Assembly (NCBI GenBank): GCA_951213105.1
Contig: OX578138.1
Location: 94,371,914 to 94,435,913 of the forward strand
Source: Amaurobius ferox
Lineage: Eukaryota; Arthropoda; Arachnida; Araneae; Amaurobiidae
Direction: 5' to 3'
DNA length: 64,000 nt
The notes beneath the pieces are model-generated. The model was given only the letters and a program-made list of their open reading frames with translations, was not told the DNA's origin and made no database searches. Positions 4,321 to 51,179 of the stretch are shown piece after piece (within the stretch, counting starts at the first letter, position 1; every line of letters begins with the position of its first letter). A program made the translations under genes and the position numbers.

Positions 4321-4868
4321 TTCAATATAAATGTATATAGATGCATCATATACTTCCTTCGAGGATACTTTGGATCTCATCTATAGTCTATCATATCTAC
4401 GTTTGATCACACTTATAGTCACTCATATCTGCGTGTGAACACATTTACAGCATTGTGTTTATACAGAGGACGAATTATTATGACCACCTGATTAGCACTT
4501 CTCAGCTGCTGTAGCTTATATGGTTTAGTTGGGATGGAATTTAGTTAAGTAGACATCTTACTTGGTCCTTGACTCAGATTATCAGTAATTTGACGAACTG
4601 GTGCATTTATTGGTTCGATTGGATAAGCCAAGTTAGATCGAGCATTCAGAAGCCATTTGCATCCAATTTATAGGAATCATTAGTATGTTGCCAACTTGAA
4701 GAAAGAAAAATTAAAATATTATTTACGAAAACTTTTAAATGAATAACAAGATTGATATGTACTGTGTTAAAAAATGTGATTGTGGGTTGAACACCTTAAA
4801 GTATTACTCGGAGACGAAAAGTAAAATTGACAAATATTTTTATCTAATATAGTTAATCCGAATTAAAG
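4321..4868. other. Unassigned AT-rich spacer
   Basis: I see no gene, RNA or recognisable repeat here. Confidence 0.4.
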
Positions 4869-5810
4869 AAAAAAAATCTGATGTGGGCAGCACATGACTT
4901 TCCTTATATAATGCAATGAATTTACTATTTTTACAGTAAACAAAAAGTATTTTTATAGTAGATATTTATATTCTTTCCAAGATATTGAATTTTCGTCAAT
5001 GAGTCGTTATTTTCATTGATTTTGCAGCATTTTTATCCATTTGGCGAGTTTATCATTAATTTAGCAACATTTAAAAAAGTTGCCAAGTTGGCGACATTCC
5101 ACCAAATTCGTCGCCAAAATCTCGCCAAGCGTTATGGACCGAGAAATAAGTTATTCTTACAGCAGATAAATTTACATTCAATTTACATTCAAAACTATTG
5201 GCGTTCAAATACAAAAGTATCACTCAAAGTATATTTTTTCATGAACGGAACGAGCTAGATCCACGAGGATGATGTCACCAAATTTATGGCATGGTATTAC
5301 ATATGTAAAGTGAACGTGTTTCTCAATAGAATTTTTTTTTCAATTTTATATGACTTTTGATAATTTTTTTAAAAATGTGCAATATCTCGAGATCGGTTCA
5401 TGTTAGCGTTCTAAAATTTATGTCAATCGTTTTATAATGAAAAATAAATAAGAAATGTCTATTTGCGTAACTTAATTAGAGGTTTTGATTTTTTGGCGAA
5501 TTTTTCAAAATTTCACTCGAAAATTTAGGAGGGTTCTGAACATTCGATTGCGTATAAAAACAATAGGCTTCTAGTGTTTACGGATTGTAATTTTTGTACC
5601 AAATTTCGTTCGAATCGGCCCATTCATTCGTCAGTTATCGCCTCCACAGTCTCACTGACACACACACACACACAGAGAGACATCACTTCAAAAATGTTCT
5701 ATCCATGATCAGGGATGCTTGAAACGTGCTCTCCCCGTCGAAAACTCGAAATCGAATTTTCGACCCCGTCATAATACTTTCCTTATACATTATTGTATAT
5801 AAGGAAAGTA
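4869..5810 (-). mobile_element. Family A element, copy A1
   Basis: On the minus strand it starts with the hairpin ACTTTCCTTATATA / TATAAGGAAAGT. A conserved block and a short (TG)n tract follow. It ends TATATAAGGAAAGT, CATGTGCTGCCCACAT and a T run. The ends are complete. Small open frames inside, including one at 5016-5258, are incidental. Confidence 0.8.
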
Positions 5811-7231
5811 ATAAGTATCACACTCATATCTACAGGCCGTGCCATTTAATTTAATATGTATATCTCATGCATTTTGCACTTGAAAGAACGTCCCTAAGAA
5901 CAATTACGAACACCCCCTAAGAACAATTACGTCGGCTTTTAAAACCCCACTACTAAGACTCCTAAATATACAGGCGGCCATCTTGACTCCCAGTTGAAAC
6001 GATAGCTGTATATAAAGAAAATATAGCTACTTTTTCCTTCATTTCTTTGGACCACAAGAAAAGCAAAACATTGTAGGCTACTTTCTTGAAAGATTGATAC
6101 AAATTTTGAGAGTAGAAGCAACCTATTTTGCAGCTAAATTGCATTTCAAATGTCATCCATGCAATATGCACGCACCATTGAAATACCACAGGCAGACGAT
6201 AATTGACTGGGCATGTTGCAGACAAATTGGCGGTTCTGTCAGCCTGTATATATAGGAAACTTACTCACTACGATCTTTCTATTGGTCAGTTGAGACAGCA
6301 TGGCAAATTTGGTTGAGATGAACGGTATGTATTTGTAGAGCCGGAAATTCACAGATATATACACTTATTTACAAACTTTCAGGATTATATTATAAGTTTC
6401 GAGTCATTAGTTCAATAAAAAATGAATTTTTTCATTCAAATGACGATAACTCGAGCAGTTTTTCTAATTATACACCTACAATTATTAAACAATTGAACAC
6501 AATTTTACCTGTGTTACTTTTGTTAGTTATAATTAGTATTTAATAATTGCAATTTAAAAACAAGTTATTAGTTCAATAGAGATGGCTTTTTTTGTTCAAA
6601 TGGCGATAACTCGAGCAGTTTTTCTGATTATACACCTACAATAATTAAACAATTGAACACATTTTTTTCTCTGTTGCTTTTTTTAGTTATAATTTAGTAT
6701 TTAATAATTAGTATTTAAAGACAAGAATTGTCGATTAAATATTTTAGCATATAATATACATTTGTACACATTTTTTTAGTTTCTAAGCTAAATAAATACG
6801 ACGTTTCACATTCATACAATATTTCAGATATTTTGGTAAGTTTGTTTAGCACACTCTAACATTTTTATTTTGATATTTTAGTAAACTGTAAACTGCCGTA
6901 GGGAAACTCCTAAGAACAATTACGTTTGCTTACAAAACGTCACTACTAAAACTTCCAAATATACAGGCTGGCGCAATAGCGTACCTGGCAAAGACAGGTT
7001 TGTTTTCTCATCCTTTTATCAAGGTCTTGAAAAAGTCGCAACATTCCAGACTACTCCGAATGATTGGTACACAATTTTGAAAGCAGAAGCACTTATTTCA
7101 CCTCTAAATTGCGCATCAAATACGACCCACGTAACATACACGCATCATTGAAATAGCACAGGCAGAAAATAACTGATTGGAATCAAAGTGGCGGACGAGT
7201 ATATTTAAAATCCATAACTATACATCAAATA
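5811..7231. repeat. Old tandemly duplicated segment (family G)
   Basis: Bases 5890-6240 and 6905-7200 are direct diverged copies. They share AAGAACAATTACGT, then AATATACAGG, then AGTAGAAGCA/AGCAGAAGCA, then CACAGGCAGA in the same order. A second segment around ACGACGTTTCACATT at 6806 recurs near 8059. Removing the family A insertion at 7232-8004 brings that spacing to about 490 bp. No convincing protein is encoded. Confidence 0.55.
6405..6735 (+). repeat. Tandem duplication, 160 bp period
   Basis: Two direct copies share GATAACTCGAGCAGTTTTTCT, anchored at about 6443 and 6603, with about 85-90% identity by eye. This duplication is nested inside the larger family G duplication. Confidence 0.8.
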
Positions 7232-10332: not shown

Positions 10333-10887
10333 GCCAGGGGGTCGATTGGGGGTCGAAGATACAATTCATTGCTACGTAAGGATTATCAGTATTTTACAAA
10401 TCTGCGACAATTAGAAATAAAAGAAGAAGACTTGGAAATATATACAGGTCATCTTCAAAAATTGAGCGACGATTTTAAACTGCGCTTTGTTGATTTGGAA
10501 AACATTGACATCCCTGATTGGATTATTGTGCCATTTTCTGCTCAAATTGAAAACGTGGACATCAACCTGCAAGATGAGCTTGCTGAATTATTATCGGATC
10601 TTGAAGCAAAGACGCTTCTTAGAAATTTAACAATAAGCAAATTTTGGACAAATATAAATATAATGCAAAAATATGTAAAACTTTGTGAAATAGCTCAACC
10701 GTTTATGCTAGCATTTCCAAGTTCCTATATGGTTGAAGCCGGTTTCAGTCACGTAAATTCAATCTTAACCAAGTACAGAAATAAATTAAATGTGGAGCTT
10801 CGAGGGGATTTAAGATTAAAATTGACTAATTTTGAACCAAATATAGCGAACCTTGCAAAAATACACCAGGCACACCCATCTCATTGA
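10333..10887 (+). pseudogene. hAT transposase C-terminal fragment (SCAND3/ZBED-like)
   Basis: The frame is open from 10333 to a TGA at 10885-10887, but it has no ATG near its 5' end. Translation from a TTG at 10369 gives 172 residues, and the first ATG is at residue 99. The C-terminal half matches the hAT dimerisation region of the SCAND3/ZBED/FAM200 type: FPSSYMVEAGFS at residues 116-127, the KYRNKLNV region at 135-142, and LRGDLRLKLTNFEPNI at 144-159. Family members are about 600-700 residues and carry an N-terminal BED or related zinc finger and an RNase H-like core, both absent here. The frame has no stop, which suggests recent deletion from an active copy. It is a remnant inside a transposon with intact ends, with no sign of a host gene. 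Confidence 0.88.
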
Positions 10888-13860: not shown

Positions 13861-14640
13861 AAAGATAATAAAGTGATAGAATAGTGTCGGAATCAAAAAC
13901 GCGAATTCGAGTTTTTGATGGAGAGCACGTTTCAAACATGTCTGAATACGAATCAAACTCGAATCGAGAAAATTACAATAGGCACAAATATTACAATCGT
14001 CGATAAGTCGAAACTTATTGACTTTAAAAACAATCAAATGTTCGGATGACCCTCACATTTCCAAACGAAATAGTGACAAAATCATTAAGAAATCAGAATA
14101 TTTAATAATGCTACGTAAATGATCATTTCTTACGTAATTTTTCAGTAGAAAACAAATAATGCAAATTTACAGCGCTAGCATAAATCGTTCTCAAGGTATT
14201 GAACGTTTATCTAATAAATTTATCAAATATATTACATAAAATTAAAAATAACTATCGTGAAATATGTTCACTTGTCATGCAATATTATGCAATAAATTTG
14301 TTAACATCATATTCCAGGATTTAGATCGTTTTATTCACGAGAACAGATACTTGTTGTTGAGACCCAGACCGTCCGAACTACCAGAAAGATGTAATGTAAC
14401 TGTTTGGACGGCCGGGACAACAGATACTTGTGTAATAGTTTTATATTTTTAAAACCAATTGTTTGCCAGTAGTCATTTACATATAAGAAAATATCTCTCC
14501 ATGTGTGTGTGTGTGTGTAACGCTTGGAGATAGATTTGGTGACTCATTTAGCAAAATATTGCTAACTTGACAATATGTCGCCCCAGATATAAGAAAATTA
14601 ACGACAACGGCGCCAAGTTGATGAATTAGTTATTAACTAT
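13861..14640 (+). mobile_element. Family A element, copy A3 (decayed, SINE-interrupted)
   Basis: Recognisable from GAATTCGAGTTTTTGATGG near 13903 and from blocks matching family A through 14620. The left hairpin is badly decayed and the right end is lost. A short SINE tail interrupts it at 14355-14418. The (TG)n tract has ended up near 14503. Confidence 0.6.
14355..14418 (-). mobile_element. 5'-truncated SINE tail with target duplication
   Basis: Only about 64 bp of the 3' end of the 5S/tRNA-headed SINE is present, reading GACGGTCTGGGTCTCAACAA on the minus strand. It lies between perfect 13 bp duplications (AACAGATACTTGT at 14342-14354 and 14419-14431). This is the expected product of abortive target-primed reverse transcription. 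Confidence 0.88.
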
Positions 14641-18128: not shown

Positions 18129-18179
18129 ATGTTAACGAAATGAGCGTAACACTCTTAGTTGTTGCATGGTATCTCAAAT

Positions 18180-18973
18180 AAAAAAAATCTGATGTGGGCA
18201 ACACATGACTTTCCTTATATAATGTAATGAATTTACTACTTTTACAGTAAAAAAATAAGTTTTCTTATAGTAGATACTAATATTCTTTCCAAGATATTGA
18301 ATTTTTGACAATTAGTCGTCATTTTCATTGATTTAGCGTCATTTTCATTGATTTAGCGTCATTTTTATCCATTTGACGAGATTTTCGCTAATTTGGCAAC
18401 ATTTCAAAAAGTCGCCAAATTGGCGACATTCCGCCAAATTCGTCGCCAAAATCTCGCCAAGCGTTATGGACGGAGAAATAAGTTATTCTTACAGCAGATA
18501 AATGTCTATTGGCGTTCAAATACAAAAGTATTACTCAAAGTATATTTTTTCATGAATAGAACGAGCTAGATCCACGGTAATGATGTCACCCAGTTTATCG
18601 CAATGTATTACATATAAAAAGTGAACATGTTTCTCAATAGGAAATATTTTTTTTTTATTTTATATGACTTTTTGATAATTTTTTTGAAAAATGTACAATA
18701 TCTCGAGAACGGTTTTTGTTAGCGTTCTAAAATTTATGTCATTCGTTTTCTAATGAGAACTTACATAAGAAATGTCTATTTGCGTAACTTTATGAGTGGT
18801 TTTGATTTTTTGACGATTTTTTCAAAATTTCATTCGAAAATTTAGGGTGGTTCTGAATATTCGATTGCGTATAAAAACAAAAGGCTTCCAGTGTTTACGG
18901 ATCGGGATTTTTGTACCAAATTTCGTTCGAATCGGTCCATTCGTTCGTCAGTTATCGTCTCCACAGGCTCACT

Positions 18974-19013
<40 letters not shown>

Positions 19014-19770: not shown

Positions 19771-19827
19771 TACGGTTACCTTACACCTTTCTGGTAGGTC
19801 GGACGGTCTGGGTCTCAACAACACAAT
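19771..19827 (+). mobile_element. 5'-truncated SINE tail
   Basis: Only the last 57 bp of the 5S/tRNA SINE is present, from TACGGTTACCTTACACC to CTCAACAACACAA. Flanking words ATGTACTTACAT (19759-19770) and ATGTTCTTACAT (19828-19839) match at 11 of 12 positions and form a probable target duplication. Confidence 0.8.
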
Positions 19828-20900: not shown

Positions 20901-21144
20901 AAATGAAAGGGGCAAGATATTTAATAGCTGAAGGCTCAAGCAGACATCAAAGATGCAGACGAGGACATCAGTTGCATAGAGCCTTCATCAGCTGTATTAG
21001 GGCCGAAGAAGACTCTAAGTAACTGGTATGGGTTTCCAGGGATTTTAAAGATGAATTCCGATGACCGGCAGCAAATCAATATTTTATTGGAATAGATAGG
21101 ATTTGAGTAAAAAAAAAAACAATTGTCGTATCGCAAACCGTATG

Positions 21145-21437
21145 ACAGAGGGGACACGATAGCTCAGTGGTTGGCAAGTGGGCATTGCACCCGGACGACC
21201 CAAGATCGATTTCTGCCTCTTCTCAAACTGTCGCCGTGTTCAAATGGTGTACGATCACGTCAAACATGTAGGTCCGTAAGTCCTTCCGAGAGGTTGGTGG
21301 TAGGAGACAGAGGGCACAGTTCCTGTGGATGCCTCCCCCCACTAGGTTCTAATCCAAATTGCGTGGCACTTCCTTGCAGTCCAAACAGATAGATACCTTA
21401 CAGCTTCGGGTAGGTTGGATGGTCTGGGTCAAACTAA
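21145..21437 (+). mobile_element. tRNA-headed SINE with body shared with the 5S-headed SINE
   Basis: The head has a good A box (TAGCTCAGTGGTTGG) and a recognisable B box (GATCGATTTCT), so it derives from a tRNA. From TGTCGCCGTGTTCA (about 21228) to the end it follows the same body as the 5S-headed copies: GTCCGTAAGTCCTTCCGAGA, GTGGATGCCTCCCCC, then GGTCTGGGTC. An 11 bp target duplication, CAAACCGTATG, flanks it at 21134-21144 and 21438-21448. It is complete. Frames through it at 21123-21577 are not genes. Confidence 0.88.
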
Positions 21438-21794
21438 CAAACCGTATGGTAGAATGTTTAAAGCTTTTTTGGGATCATGTTCATCACAAGGCAAGTTTTT
21501 GTAAAAATAAGATAATTATAGCTAAGTTCGTTTTAATATATAGTGTGGTGACGGTCCTCGTATTAATACCATTTTAATATATATTTTCAAATAAAATCCA
21601 TTGTTGGATATATTATAATTAACATATTAATAACCCCCACCCCTCCCACAAGTCCGTACATTAAAGTGATTTTGTTTTAAAGCCATTTAAAATCTTAATT
21701 GCTAAATTTAGAATATATTATCTTAGAAACGTGATTACTTTAAGGAAATACTCATAATGTGCAGGTCACCTCGTGAATAAGAGTTTGCAATTTC

Positions 21795-26094: not shown

Positions 26095-26108
26095 ACACTG
26101 AAGTGAGT
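26095..26108. repeat. Target-site duplication of the 5S SINE, left copy
   Basis: ACACTGAAGTGAGT, repeated perfectly at 26492-26505. Confidence 0.92.
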
Positions 26109-26491
26109 AGGCCAACGGCCGTACCGTGCTGAAAACACCGGTTCTCGTTAGATCACCGAAGTCAAGCAGCATCGGGCGCGGTTAGTACTTGGTGGGTGAC
26201 CACCTCGGAACACCGCGTGCTGTTGGCCATCTCGGGTGCGGTATCCCCGTGGTTTGCGCTCTAAGATTTGCAAGCTGCCACAAATGCCGCCGTGTTCATG
26301 CGGAGTACGATCACGTTAAACATGTGGGTCCGTAAGTCCTTCCGAGAGGTTGGTGGTAGGGGAAGGAGGGTACGGTCCCTGTGGATGCCTCCCCCACTGG
26401 GTTCCGGTCTAAATTGGGTGGCATTTCCCGGCCGTCCATACAGTTACCTTACACCTTTCTGGTAGGTCGGACGGTCTGGGTCTCAACAACA
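26109..26491 (+). mobile_element. 5S rRNA-headed SINE (SINE3-type), full length
   Basis: Order: near-complete 5S rRNA (26111-26227); linker 26228-26284; body beginning TGCCGCCGTGTTCATGCGG; and a tail GGTCTGGGTCTCAACAAC. The linker contains GTGGTTTGCGCTCT..GATTTGCA, which aligns with the A-box half of the tRNA-headed copy, so it looks like a decayed tRNA head. The perfect 14 bp duplication on each side shows it inserted by target-primed reverse transcription of RNA made from the 5S promoter. The CAA-rich tail is probably what its partner LINE recognised. Confidence 0.93.
26111..26227 (+). pseudogene. 5S rRNA-derived promoter head
   Basis: 117 nt closely resembling animal 5S rRNA, with TCAAGCAGCATCGGGCGCGG (A box and intermediate element) and GGGTGACCACCTCGGAACACC (C box). 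It differs from functional 5S by one missing base in CTTGG.TGGG and several substitutions. It is fused directly to SINE sequence and so is not a genuine 5S gene. It probably keeps a type 1 Pol III promoter. Confidence 0.92.
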
Positions 26492-26505
26492 ACACTGAAG
26501 TGAGT
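26492..26505. repeat. Target-site duplication of the 5S SINE, right copy
   Basis: ACACTGAAGTGAGT, identical to 26095-26108. Confidence 0.92.
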
Positions 26506-42994: not shown

Positions 42995-43379
42995 TGTTGT
43001 TGTTAAGACCCAGACCGTCCGACCTACCCGAAAGCTGTAAGGTAACTGTTTGAACGGCCGGAAAGTGCCACCCAATTAAGACCAGAAGCCAGTGGGGGAG
43101 GCATCCACAGGGACCGTACCCTTCTTTCCCTACCGCCAACATCTCGGAAGGACTTACGGACCCACATGTTTAACGTGATCGTACTCCGCGTGAACACGGC
43201 GGCAGTTGTGTCAGCGTGCAAATCCAGCGCGCAAACCACCGGACGACCGCGCCCGAAATGTGACAACAGCACGCGATGTTCCCAAGTGGTCACCCACCTA
43301 AGTACTAACCGCGACCGCTGCTGCTTGACTTCGGTGATCTAACGAGACCCGGTGTTATCAGCACGGTAGGGCCGTTGGC
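42995..43379 (-). mobile_element. 5S rRNA-headed SINE, second copy
   Basis: On the minus strand: 5S head (43379-43262), the linker CGGTGGTTTGCGCGCTGG then ATTTGCACGCTG, the body, and a tail GGTCTGGGTCTTAACAACAA. The layout matches 26109-26491. The linker is better preserved here and resembles the A-box arm of a tRNA. Flanks TCATAAAGAACT (left) and TCATCAAGAAGT (right) match at 10 of 12 positions and may be a decayed target duplication. Confidence 0.9.
43262..43379 (-). pseudogene. 5S rRNA-derived head, second copy
   Basis: About 118 nt closely matching animal 5S rRNA, with TCAAGCAGCAGCGGTCGCGG and GGTGGGTGACCACTTGGGAA in the promoter regions. It retains the T-A-G-G-T-G-G-G spacing lost in the other copy. 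Fused to the SINE body and not a functional 5S gene. Confidence 0.9.
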
Positions 43380-45124: not shown

Positions 45125-46046
45125 ATTATGTAAGCAGTTGCTGTTCTGAAAATTTTCGAATTGAAGATTCGTCAAAAAAAGACACGCCGTAACAGCACTC
45201 AGCACACACCTCGAATACTTTTGTATTTATATCCCTATATGTGTCCATGGATTATAGTCGTGAATACAATAACTCAATAATGAATGTACGTATTTCTATG
45301 ATATTGTATGCTTGCATATATTATGAAAATACATAAAAGTAGATAAAGAATTTTATGATCCGCATGATTAGAACACAAGTTATTGGAAATAGGAGATTTT
45401 CATACCAATATTTCCTATGAGAAACAATGGTAATTTTTAGAGAAATGGTAATAGTTTAATATGTGCGGGGAGAAGGCTATTCGACATTTCTTATAAACTT
45501 TATTAAACGAATGAATTGTGTGTGTTAGCGCAATTGTATGAATGTATCAAGTTCAACTGAACTATTGCTTATTTAATTTAGTTCAAATAATACTGGAGAA
45601 CACATTTTGACATTTTATAAATCTCTGAAATTAAACCGAGTTACCTTTAGATCTGTTGAATCTGAAAATGGCTGTTAAAAAACCAGATTAACTCTAGTTT
45701 TGTTAAATATCTGTAAAACAAGCTTTGCACTACATATCCAATTAAAAAACTCACACAGGAGGCTTGTTGCTTGTAATCAGTTGCCGGAGCGTCTTAGACA
45801 AGGGTCGTATAATAGTCAGCTAACACTGCTGCTTTCGATTTACCTTCATTCCATTTTTCGAGGACAGTATAACATCTTTATGAAACCGTTCCTTGTGTAC
45901 GTCACATATAGTACCGTGATAAATCGGGCAGAAATCCATAGAGTGTGAAAAGTGTATCTTTATTGGAATGTTGCACCTATTCTTTCGTAGTGCTTCAAGA
46001 GGATTTCTGGAAATTTTTTGTAATTCCTGAATTGGTGTTCGCAATT
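45125..46046. other. Unassigned spacer
   Basis: No recognisable gene. The frames at 45700-45948 (plus) and 45820-46044 (minus) overlap on opposite strands and have no domain I can name. Confidence 0.35.
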
Positions 46047-46950
46047 AAAAAAACAATCTGATGTGGGCAGCACATGACTTTCCTTATATAATGCAATGAA
46101 TTTACTACCTTTACAGTAAAAAAAATATTATTTTTATAGTAGATATTTATATTCTTTCCAAGATATTGAATTTTCGTCAATGAGTCGTTATTTTCATTGA
46201 TTTAGGGTCATTTTTATTCATTTGGCGAGTTTTTCACTAATTTAGCATCATTTAAAAAATCGCCAATTTGGCGACATTCCGCCAAATTTGTCGCCAAAAT
46301 CTCGCCAAATGTTACGACGGAGAAATAAGTTACTCATACAGCAGATAAATGACTATTGTCGTTCAAATGCAAAAGTATTACTCAAAGTATCTTTTGTCAT
46401 GAATGAAACGAGCTAGATCTACGAGAATGATGTCACCAAATTTATCGCATGGTATTACATATGAAAAGTGAACATGTTTGTCAATAGGAAATATTTTTTT
46501 TAATTTTATATGACTTTTTGATAATTTTTTTGAAAAATTTGCAATATCTGGAGAACGGTTCATGTTAGCGTTCTAAAATTTATGTCAATCGTTTTCTAAT
46601 GACAAATTACATAAGAAATGTCGATTTGCTTAACTTTATTAGAGGTTTCGATTTTTTCAAAATTTCACTCGAAGATTTAGGGGGGTTCTGAACATTCGAT
46701 TGCGTATAAAATCAATAGGCTTACAGTGTTTATGGATTGTAATTTGTGTGCCAAATTTCGTTCGAATCGGTCCATTCGTTCGTCAGTTATCGTCTCTACA
46801 GTCTCACTGACACACACACAGACATCCCTTCAAAAACGTTTGATTCGTGTTCAGGCACGCTCGAAACGTGCTCTACCGTCGAAAACTCGAATTCGAATTT
46901 TTGACCCCGTCACAATACTGGCCTTATACATTATGTATGTAAGGAATGCA
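46047..46950 (-). mobile_element. Family A element, copy A8
   Basis: Complete. The minus-strand start hairpin is mutated (TTGCATTCCTTACATACATAA) and the other end is intact. The GT core is almost absent (46808-46820), showing that the microsatellite length is dispensable. Confidence 0.8.
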
Positions 46951-47361
46951 ACTAAGGCTAATCCATGGTTTTAAAGTTTATATTTCTGATCAGCATATTC
47001 AAATTAGTGAAAATATACTACTTTTATATCAGAGCATATTGGACGTTCTTCGGTGTAATTAAGAAACCTCTAAAAGAGCAACTTTATGGGTTTAAGCATA
47101 CGTAAATATTTAATAATATTGTATAGGAAATTTAACTGGAAGATTGCACGTCAATGTAAGTTGGTTTTTAGTAAGTCAGGATGTTATTGAACATTAATTC
47201 AGAATATGCAATTTTGGAAAGAGACAGAATTGGGTTTAAATTTCGTGTATAACCAGATTTCATTAAATATAATAGGGACTCTGATTTTTATTTCCGCACA
47301 GAAAATAAATATATTTTAGACATTCGATCCTCGTGGCCAAAAAATATTCACTCCAGCTTTG
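46951..47361. other. Unassigned spacer between A8 and A9
   Basis: Nothing recognised. Confidence 0.4.
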
Positions 47362-49824: not shown

Positions 49825-50614
49825 AAAAATCTGATGTGGGCAACACATTTCCTCATATAATGTAATGAATTTACTATTTTACTGTAAAAGAATAGGCTTT
49901 CCTTAAAGTAGATACTAATATTCTTTCCAAGATATTGAATTTTCGACAATTAGTCGTCATTTTCAATGATATAGCGTCATTTTTATCCATTTGGCGAGAT
50001 TTTCGTTAAATTGGCAACATTTCAAAAAGTCGCCCAGTTGGCGACATTACGCCAAATTCGTCGCCAAAATCTCGCCAAGCGTTATGGACCAAGAAATAAG
50101 TTATTCTTACAGCAGATAAATGACTATTGGCGTTCAAATACAAATGTATTACTTAAAGTATCTGTTTTCATGAATGGAACGAGCTAGATCCACGAGAATG
50201 ATGTCATCCAAATTATCGCCTGGTATTACATATGAAAAGTGAACATGTTTCTCAATAGGATATATATATTTTTTAATTTTATATGACTTTTTGATAATTT
50301 TTTTGAAAAATTTACAATATCTGAAGAACGGTTCATGTTAGCGTTCTAAAATTTATGTCAATCGTTTTCTAATGAAAAATTACATAAGAAATGTCGATTT
50401 GCGTAACTTTATTAGCGGTTTTGATTTTTTGACAATTTTTTCAAAATTTTATTCGAAAATTTAGGGGGGTTCTGAACGTTCGATTGCGTATAAAAACAAT
50501 AGGCTTCCAGTGTTTACGGATTGGGATTTTTGTACGAAATTTTGTTCGAATCGGTCCATTCGTTCGTCAGTTATTATCTCCACAGACTCACTGACACACA
50601 CATACACACACATA

Positions 50615-50653
<39 letters not shown>

Positions 50654-50783
50654 AGACATCACTTCAAAATGTTTGATTCGTGATCAGGGATGCTTGAAAC
50701 GTGCTCTCCCGTCGAAAACTCGAATTCGAATTTTCGATCCCGTCACAAAACTTTCCTTAAACATTATGTATATAAGGAAAGTA
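49825..50783 (-). mobile_element. Family A element, copy A11
   Basis: Complete on the minus strand. The 3'-terminal repeat is damaged (CACATTTCCTCATATAATG, missing part of GACTTTCC). The GT core at 50596-50655 is compound. Confidence 0.8.
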
Positions 50784-51179
50784 AAAATGCTTAATTTGTA
50801 TTCAAGATTTCTCAAATTGTGTGAATCTAGACAATTTTGCAACACATTACCTTTACATATACTATTATTGCGAAGAAAGTCATAATGAACGATATACTCA
50901 TAAATTTATGCGTATATTTCTTATATTACTTTCTAAGATTAATTTAAAACTATTATTCTTCATTGGTGATGAACGAAGCAGCCAATACTGGAATTCAATA
51001 AATCACATTCGTACAGAAAAATCTAACTCGCATATTGCATTTTCCGCAATTCGTTCACAATTTCTTACTTTATCAAAATGTAGCAGGAAAAAAAAGAGAG
51101 AGAAATGATATATTTTATAAATAAATAAACACCTCCGAGTTTCCTCCAGGTGATAAATGAAATGCAAAATTATTATTTT
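50784..51179. other. Unassigned spacer
   Basis: No gene is recognised. The frame at 50821-51108 has no known domain. Confidence 0.35.

Follow-up and report, generated by a model that had tools for sequence, protein, structure and literature searches.

The closest described counterparts of the element reported here are SINEs that carry a 5S rRNA-derived sequence at their 5′ end. According to the available portion of its description, AmnSINE1 of the Deu-SINE superfamily in amniotes consists of a 5S-derived promoter, a tRNA-derived region, a body and a tail (PMC3234267), and we find the same order in an element at positions 26109-26491 of the window, the 64,000-nucleotide stretch of the Amaurobius ferox genome that was analysed. 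Here too a tRNA-derived region lies between the 5S and the body, as in a 5S/tRNA chimera of the AmnSINE1 kind, although the likeness drawn here is one of architecture: AmnSINE1 is ancient, while the 5S family here is young and retains only the A-box half of its tRNA region. Unlike AmnSINE1, as far as its accessible description goes, this family also has a young tRNA-headed sister with a whole head in the same genome.

In Helicoverpa armigera, the 5S-headed HaSE3 shares its body and tail (94%) with the tRNA-headed HaSE1, and the available text describes it as a 5S/tRNA-SINE chimera for which template switching was proposed (PMC3272025). As here, a 5S-headed and a tRNA-headed SINE with a common body and tail occur in one genome; however, the accessible part of that report makes no mention of a tRNA remnant between 5S and body, whereas in this genome such a remnant exists and the extent of its decay is measurable. 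By their descriptions in the available texts, members of the SINE3 class (zebrafish SINE3, OS-SINE1, SINE3-1_TC and PxSE4/5) likewise combine a 5S-derived head, a body and a tail (PMC8010984, PMC7245038, PMC3747384), and the hagfish 7SL chimera SINE1-1_EBu also has the head of a Pol III RNA on an older tRNA-type SINE (PMC7245038), although in the accessible account that head is 7SL, with bipartite RTE parts, rather than 5S. About 24,000 5S-derived loci were reported in the giant squid, many such high-copy RNA loci being SINEs in the authors' view as given in the accessible text (PMC6962438), and cephalopod 5S loci are also treated in the available part of PMC13282606. AmnSINE1, HaSE3 and the squid loci make this kind of element already known, and the initial annotation overstated the case in calling a readable 5S-on-tRNA intermediate unusual.

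In the accessible text of the open-licence literature we found no description of a young 5S family with half a tRNA remnant, beside a young full-tRNA sister, in which decay can be measured; this concerns that literature and is not a claim of absence from print. Short body and tail strings gave only isolated 12-base matches in full-text literature, under unrelated titles. An exact 21-base body pattern had no match in collections of genome contigs and viral contigs, and the viral-contig collection likewise had no match to a pattern from the tail, to another from the body or to a V-SINE motif. Two octopus SINEs matched the window only over 18-21 bases (E = 0.36).

A 5S-headed SINE and its relatives in the window

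The element at 26109-26491 on the plus strand is a full-length 5S-headed SINE made up of a 5S rRNA head, a linker, a body and a tail. Its parts and its relatives in the window are as follows.

26095..26108, plus strand: 5′ target-site duplication ACACTGAAGTGAGT, a 14-bp perfect direct repeat
26109..26491, plus strand: full-length 5S-headed SINE, one of the listed genome places at 98-100%
26111..26228, plus strand: 5S rRNA-derived head, type 1 Pol III promoter region (RF00001, 102.4 bits)
26229..26233, plus strand: joint where the 3′ end of the 5S meets the 5′ end of the tRNA, from the alignment of the families
26234..26281, plus strand: tRNA-head remnant (5′ acceptor, D arm, decayed A box, last bases before the body), matching the sister tRNA heads
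26242-26252, plus strand: decayed A box in the D arm of the tRNA-head remnant
Between 26272 and 26273, plus strand: point of the 27-nt deletion in the tRNA-head remnant, from the alignment of the families
26282..26491, plus strand: body and 3′ tail ending ACAACA, common to the tRNA-headed sister family
26492..26505, plus strand: 3′ target-site duplication, a 14-bp perfect repeat of 26095-26108
42998..43379, minus strand: second, older 5S-headed copy (RF00001, 89.4 bits; 90% to the 26-kb copy)
43379-43261, 43260-43208 and 43207-42998, minus strand: 5S, linker and body of the second copy
21145..21440, plus strand: older tRNA-headed relative, with an A box at 21160-21170 and a B box (8/11) at 21203-21213
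14352..14417, minus strand: 5′-truncated tail copy of 66 bp inside a dispersed repeat, with 13-bp duplications at 14342-14354 and 14419-14431
19771..19823, plus strand: 5′-truncated tail copy of 53 bp; best perfect duplication 7 bp, no long one
18176-18999, 34987-34038, 46043-46956, 49825-50787, 60085-59133 and 61632-60661: further places of a dispersed repeat of about 950 bp

The 5S head spans the whole Rfam model (positions 1-120; E = 2.7e−21) and folds far better than its own shuffles (z = −3.98). It is followed by a linker of 53 nt (26229-26281) and a body of 210 nt, tail included. A hairpin predicted in this linker is absent from the 43-kb copy and was rejected. No run of four T occurs within the three long copies of the window.

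The second 5S-headed copy is 90% identical to the 26-kb copy over the entire element and has the same linker layout; a search for perfect flanking duplications at 42998-43379 found none. The tRNA-headed relative at 21145 has its A and B boxes at tRNA spacing, as does the sister family described below, and only 3 of 5000 shuffles reached its joint score for the two boxes. This copy has 11-bp duplications (21134-21144 and 21438-21448), and its body (21226-21430) is 82.5% identical to that of the 26-kb copy. For the truncated copy at 14352, an empty site is available, as all 11 compared copies of the host repeat are uninterrupted there.

We also observed that a dispersed repeat of about 950 bp, for instance at 4861-5815, occurs in about 10 copies of 73-88% identity in the 64 kb, and that several ORFs with His-Thr runs overlap it. 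Another ORF of the window (10333-10887, plus strand, 184 codons) is related to proteins named SCAN domain-containing protein 3; its nearest relatives, which are unnamed proteins, are 82-92% identical and those of Trichinella and Macrobrachium 46-62%, and it had no Pfam match at 1e−3. The body start of the 43-kb copy (43204-43177, minus strand) is similar to the Rfam s2m motif over the first half of the latter. Partial s2m matches at the body start scored 13.5, 16.8 and 13.1 bits (E = 1.5, 0.16 and 6.5), where the gathering score is 50. This resemblance is weaker in the 26-kb copy, and 21145 differs there, and it is probably due to chance.

Two sister families in the genome

We searched the assembly (3.56 Gb in 276 contigs, the window lying on contig C9) with copies of each head type. 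The 26-kb element gave 1215 first-look candidates and at least 40 scored full-length places at 98-100% identity, itself included, plus two short pieces. A tRNA-headed copy, L017, gave 1871 first-look candidates and at least 40 scored full-length tRNA-headed places, also at 98-100% (query included), plus four short pieces. A copy of an older 5S subfamily, L020, returned 5310 first-look candidates and at least 40 scored full-length places which, apart from the query itself, lie at 94-96%; 20 further old copies were taken from this search, and ten tRNA-headed and ten more young 5S copies were retrieved for alignment.

A query-free sample, twenty stretches of 10 kb taken at round positions of five contigs (196,529 unmasked bases), contained 18 body-related loci, to which the window adds 5. 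In four sample copies (L014 6718, L017 3952, L023 7179 and L024 4813) the tRNA-type head is entire, with both an A and a B box, and the bodies are 92-97% identical to that of the 26-kb copy; for the sister family as a whole, body identity to the 5S family is about 97%. Those with a full-length body and no B box are L020, with a complete 5S, L021, whose 5S is internally deleted, and the truncated copies L023 9771 and L032. Scaled up to the whole genome, four copies in this sample correspond to about 72,500 (Poisson range, 20,000-186,000).

Perfect target-site duplications accompany both families. In a survey that left out matches starting after body position 12 and the 26-kb copy itself (L005), 11 of 14 tRNA-headed copies have duplications of 14-18 bp ending at most 2 bases from the tRNA start GGGCGCGG, and 15 of 18 young 5S copies have duplications of 13-18 bp ending within about 3 bases of the 5S start. 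The copies are dispersed and flanked by duplications, as SINEs are, and the 5S-headed family has the 5S homology at the 5′ end, starting at about 5S +1, that marks SINE3.

Alignment of the families gives the order 5S, joint, tRNA head from its first base via the A box to the anticodon region, last head bases, and body. The joint differs between the subfamilies, its majority sequence being ACATTTC among old copies and CATCTC among young ones. Relative to the sister, a single 27-nt block is missing from the 5S family together with the B-box segment, and the deletion is the same in the old and the young majority. The sister family carries GGGTTCGATTCC in 13 of 14 copies and GGTTCGATTCC in the remaining one, and its A box is TAGCCCATTGG in 11 copies, with variants in 3. 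The B box GTTCGATTC is present in all 14 tRNA-headed copies and in none of the 40 aligned 5S-headed copies. In this count, 37 of the 40 5S-headed copies had come from B-less queries, and 10 of the 14 tRNA-headed ones from a query that contains a B box; the unselected copies, three with 5S (the two window copies and L020) and four with tRNA heads, agree with the split. These results bear out what the initial annotation said of the near-complete 5S gene at the front of the element, the perfect 14-bp duplications, the body in common with the tRNA-headed copy at 21145, and the missing B-box part. Its further proposals, that the 5S unit joined before the B box was lost and took over transcription, describe one possible history.

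Two loci, L046 and L050, hold 5S-headed copies inserted within tRNA-headed sister copies, and such nesting can yield relative ages. At a third locus, L053, three copies are clustered. One is a complete 5S copy, in another the 5S and linker run straight into the tail, and the third is a body copy that begins close to where the linker ends.

Proposed gain of the 5S head and loss of the B box

We propose that this is, very probably, a Pol III SINE family that switched its promoter from the tRNA type to the 5S type. A complete 5S rRNA sequence would have been added in front of a tRNA-headed SINE with A and B boxes, body and tail, most likely by a LINE reverse transcriptase that reached the 5′ end of the SINE RNA and then switched template to the 3′ end of 5S rRNA. 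Before or after this gain, a single 27-nt deletion would have removed the part of the tRNA that extends from the anticodon region across the T arm and includes the B box. The shared tail would let a presumed LINE partner copy both families by target-primed reverse transcription.

The direction of the switch is suggested by the more distant relatives. The diverged body relatives 21145, L016 and L029 all have tRNA heads, and none of the 5S-headed copies seen has a body as diverged as theirs, which points to the tRNA head as the older state. The initial annotation had also proposed sorting the copies by head and building a tree of the body. Such a tree of 40 rows, leaving out the 26-kb copy (L005) and matches that start after body position 12 or end before 195, unites 11 young tRNA-headed copies in one group (99/94) and, less firmly, the 18 young 5S copies in another (92/91). 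It gives no firm support to the deep forks, and the B-less copies require 4 changes of head type. It is the shared joint and deletion, not the tree, that argue for one origin of the 5S family.

A different order of events is possible, if unlikely: the B-box arm may have been lost first, leaving a B-less and poorly transcribed tRNA-headed SINE that was then rescued by the gain of 5S. A copy at L023 9724-9980 has neither B box nor 5S, begins at about the tRNA start and has a 17-bp duplication, and no copy with both 5S and an intact B box occurs among the 40 aligned 5S copies, 37 of them picked by B-less queries. However, the first three bases of the tRNA start belong to the duplication of the L023 copy, which could therefore equally be a 5′-truncated 5S copy, and it is the one copy of this type in the 20 sampled stretches.

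Template switching remains our preferred route for the gain itself. We regard it as improbable that the 5S head came by DNA recombination or by insertion of the SINE beside a 5S pseudogene; the 7-nt joint of unclear origin between the 5S and tRNA parts in the old majority would suit such an event, but the two parts meet at approximately the natural ends of the RNAs, which is what a switch at the RNA level predicts and fits template switching during reverse transcription.

Apparent constraint on the 5S and body, and apparent release of the tRNA remnant

We compared the majority sequences of the old 5S subfamily (22 copies) and the young one (18 copies); L021, L023_9771 and L032, in which the 5S is partly or wholly missing, were in the first old-group alignment and are not among the 22. 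From the old to the young majority, 6 of 53 sites changed in the linker, 2 of 117 in the 5S and 2 of 210 in the body, so that the linker exceeds 5S plus body (4/327) with a Fisher p of 0.0008; besides these substitutions, one base was lost in the linker and one in the 5S. Within the 18 young copies, 25 of 954 linker cells differ from the majority against 15 of 5884 in 5S plus body (p = 1.5e−12, a guide only because alignment cells are not independent events), and common variants at three linker positions point to several source genes differing mainly there. The 22 old copies, in which most differences should have arisen by mutation after insertion, served as a control, with 32 of 1188 cells in the linker and 157 of 7206 in 5S plus body (p = 0.29), the regions lying at 2.1-2.7%. 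Given an excess in the linker between the subfamilies and none within the old copies, constraint seems to act on the 5S and the body and to have been lifted from the tRNA remnant. Such a release would be expected if the 5S promoter had taken over.

It is very unlikely that the linker differences reflect mutation bias rather than relaxed selection. Between the two window copies alone, the linker excess (10/52 versus 25/328; p = 0.016) is gone outside CpG sites (4/35 versus 19/272; p = 0.31), as a bias would produce; however, the 22 old copies have no significant linker excess, hence no regional bias is seen in their even differences, and only one of the six source changes in the linker is a C-to-T change at a CpG.

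Genes for 5S rRNA have an internal type 1 promoter that is read via TFIIIA, and tRNA heads have a type 2 promoter whose A and B boxes are read via TFIIIC. Removal of the B box should cripple a type 2 promoter. The 5S family is without a B box yet young and numerous, its 5S looks constrained and its A-box relict appears to be drifting, which fits a takeover by the 5S promoter. The type 1 promoter of the 5S would then drive the 5S-headed family, and the tRNA remnant would drift after the takeover. We also noted that the young 5S copies, though the youngest group, have lost one base near box C, at 5S position 81; either this base is dispensable or another part of the promoter helps.

The linker as half of a tRNA-derived head

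Within the window, the likeness of the linker to a tRNA head varies with the copy. Against the head at 21145, the linkers of the two 5S copies taken jointly reach an ungapped score of 17, which none of 1500 column shuffles attained. Alone, the 43-kb linker scores 13 (reached by 1/1500) and the 26-kb linker 9 (reached by 74/1500), and this weak score makes the A-box-half reading plausible, not proven, from the window alone. Against sister heads elsewhere in the genome, none of 3000 shuffles reaches the score of any of three linkers, that of the 26-kb copy included, and the L020 linker is identical to a sister head at 34 of 39 positions. The sister copies settle the point: the linker represents the 5′ half, with the A box, of a head derived from a tRNA. 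This is how the initial annotation had read it, although at a length of 57 bp where we measure 53 nt.

General models do not recognise the heads of 21145 and the sister family as tRNAs. In pairwise comparison with 25 phage and E. coli tRNAs, the best scores of the linkers were reached by 197 and 169 of 400 shuffles, so that the expected match to tRNA beyond shuffled sequence holds for the sister heads and not for this set. A profile of the 25 tRNAs found nothing in the linker of the 26-kb copy or in the 21145 head, and gave the 43-kb linker 2.5 bits (E = 4; 0/300 shuffles), too weak for use. Rfam returned no tRNA in the 21145 head or the two window linkers at E up to 10. With E up to 1 it found none in the L037 and L023 heads either, and the sole match there was of the L023 T arm to tmRNA (E = 0.036). 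ARAGORN called no tRNA in the window and one among 11 genome loci, in an old copy in L029. The idea that the linker is unrelated sequence resembling an A box by chance, to which the weak 26-kb score and the shuffle-level scores against real tRNAs might lend colour, can be set aside, as the match of three linkers to the sister heads, beyond every shuffle, collinear and stopping at the deletion, already refutes a chance origin at this level.

Implications for promoter change in SINEs

A speculative and on the whole doubtful reason for the loss of the B-box arm is that it was harmful behind a 5S head, where TFIIIC would bind as well and RNase P and RNase Z would cut at the tRNA ends; loss of the T arm would then leave an uncut transcript and a single type 1 promoter. 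If this were true, the two sister families would document, in nature, a promoter swap that became complete when the element escaped tRNA processing.

Comparisons of SINE heads are usually made between distant species, at a time when any switch is long past. The genome studied here holds two young families with a common body and tail and different Pol III promoters, and the discarded half of the old promoter is still present, its apparent release from constraint measured against a control of old copies. This makes directly testable how a SINE changes its promoter and what becomes of the old one.
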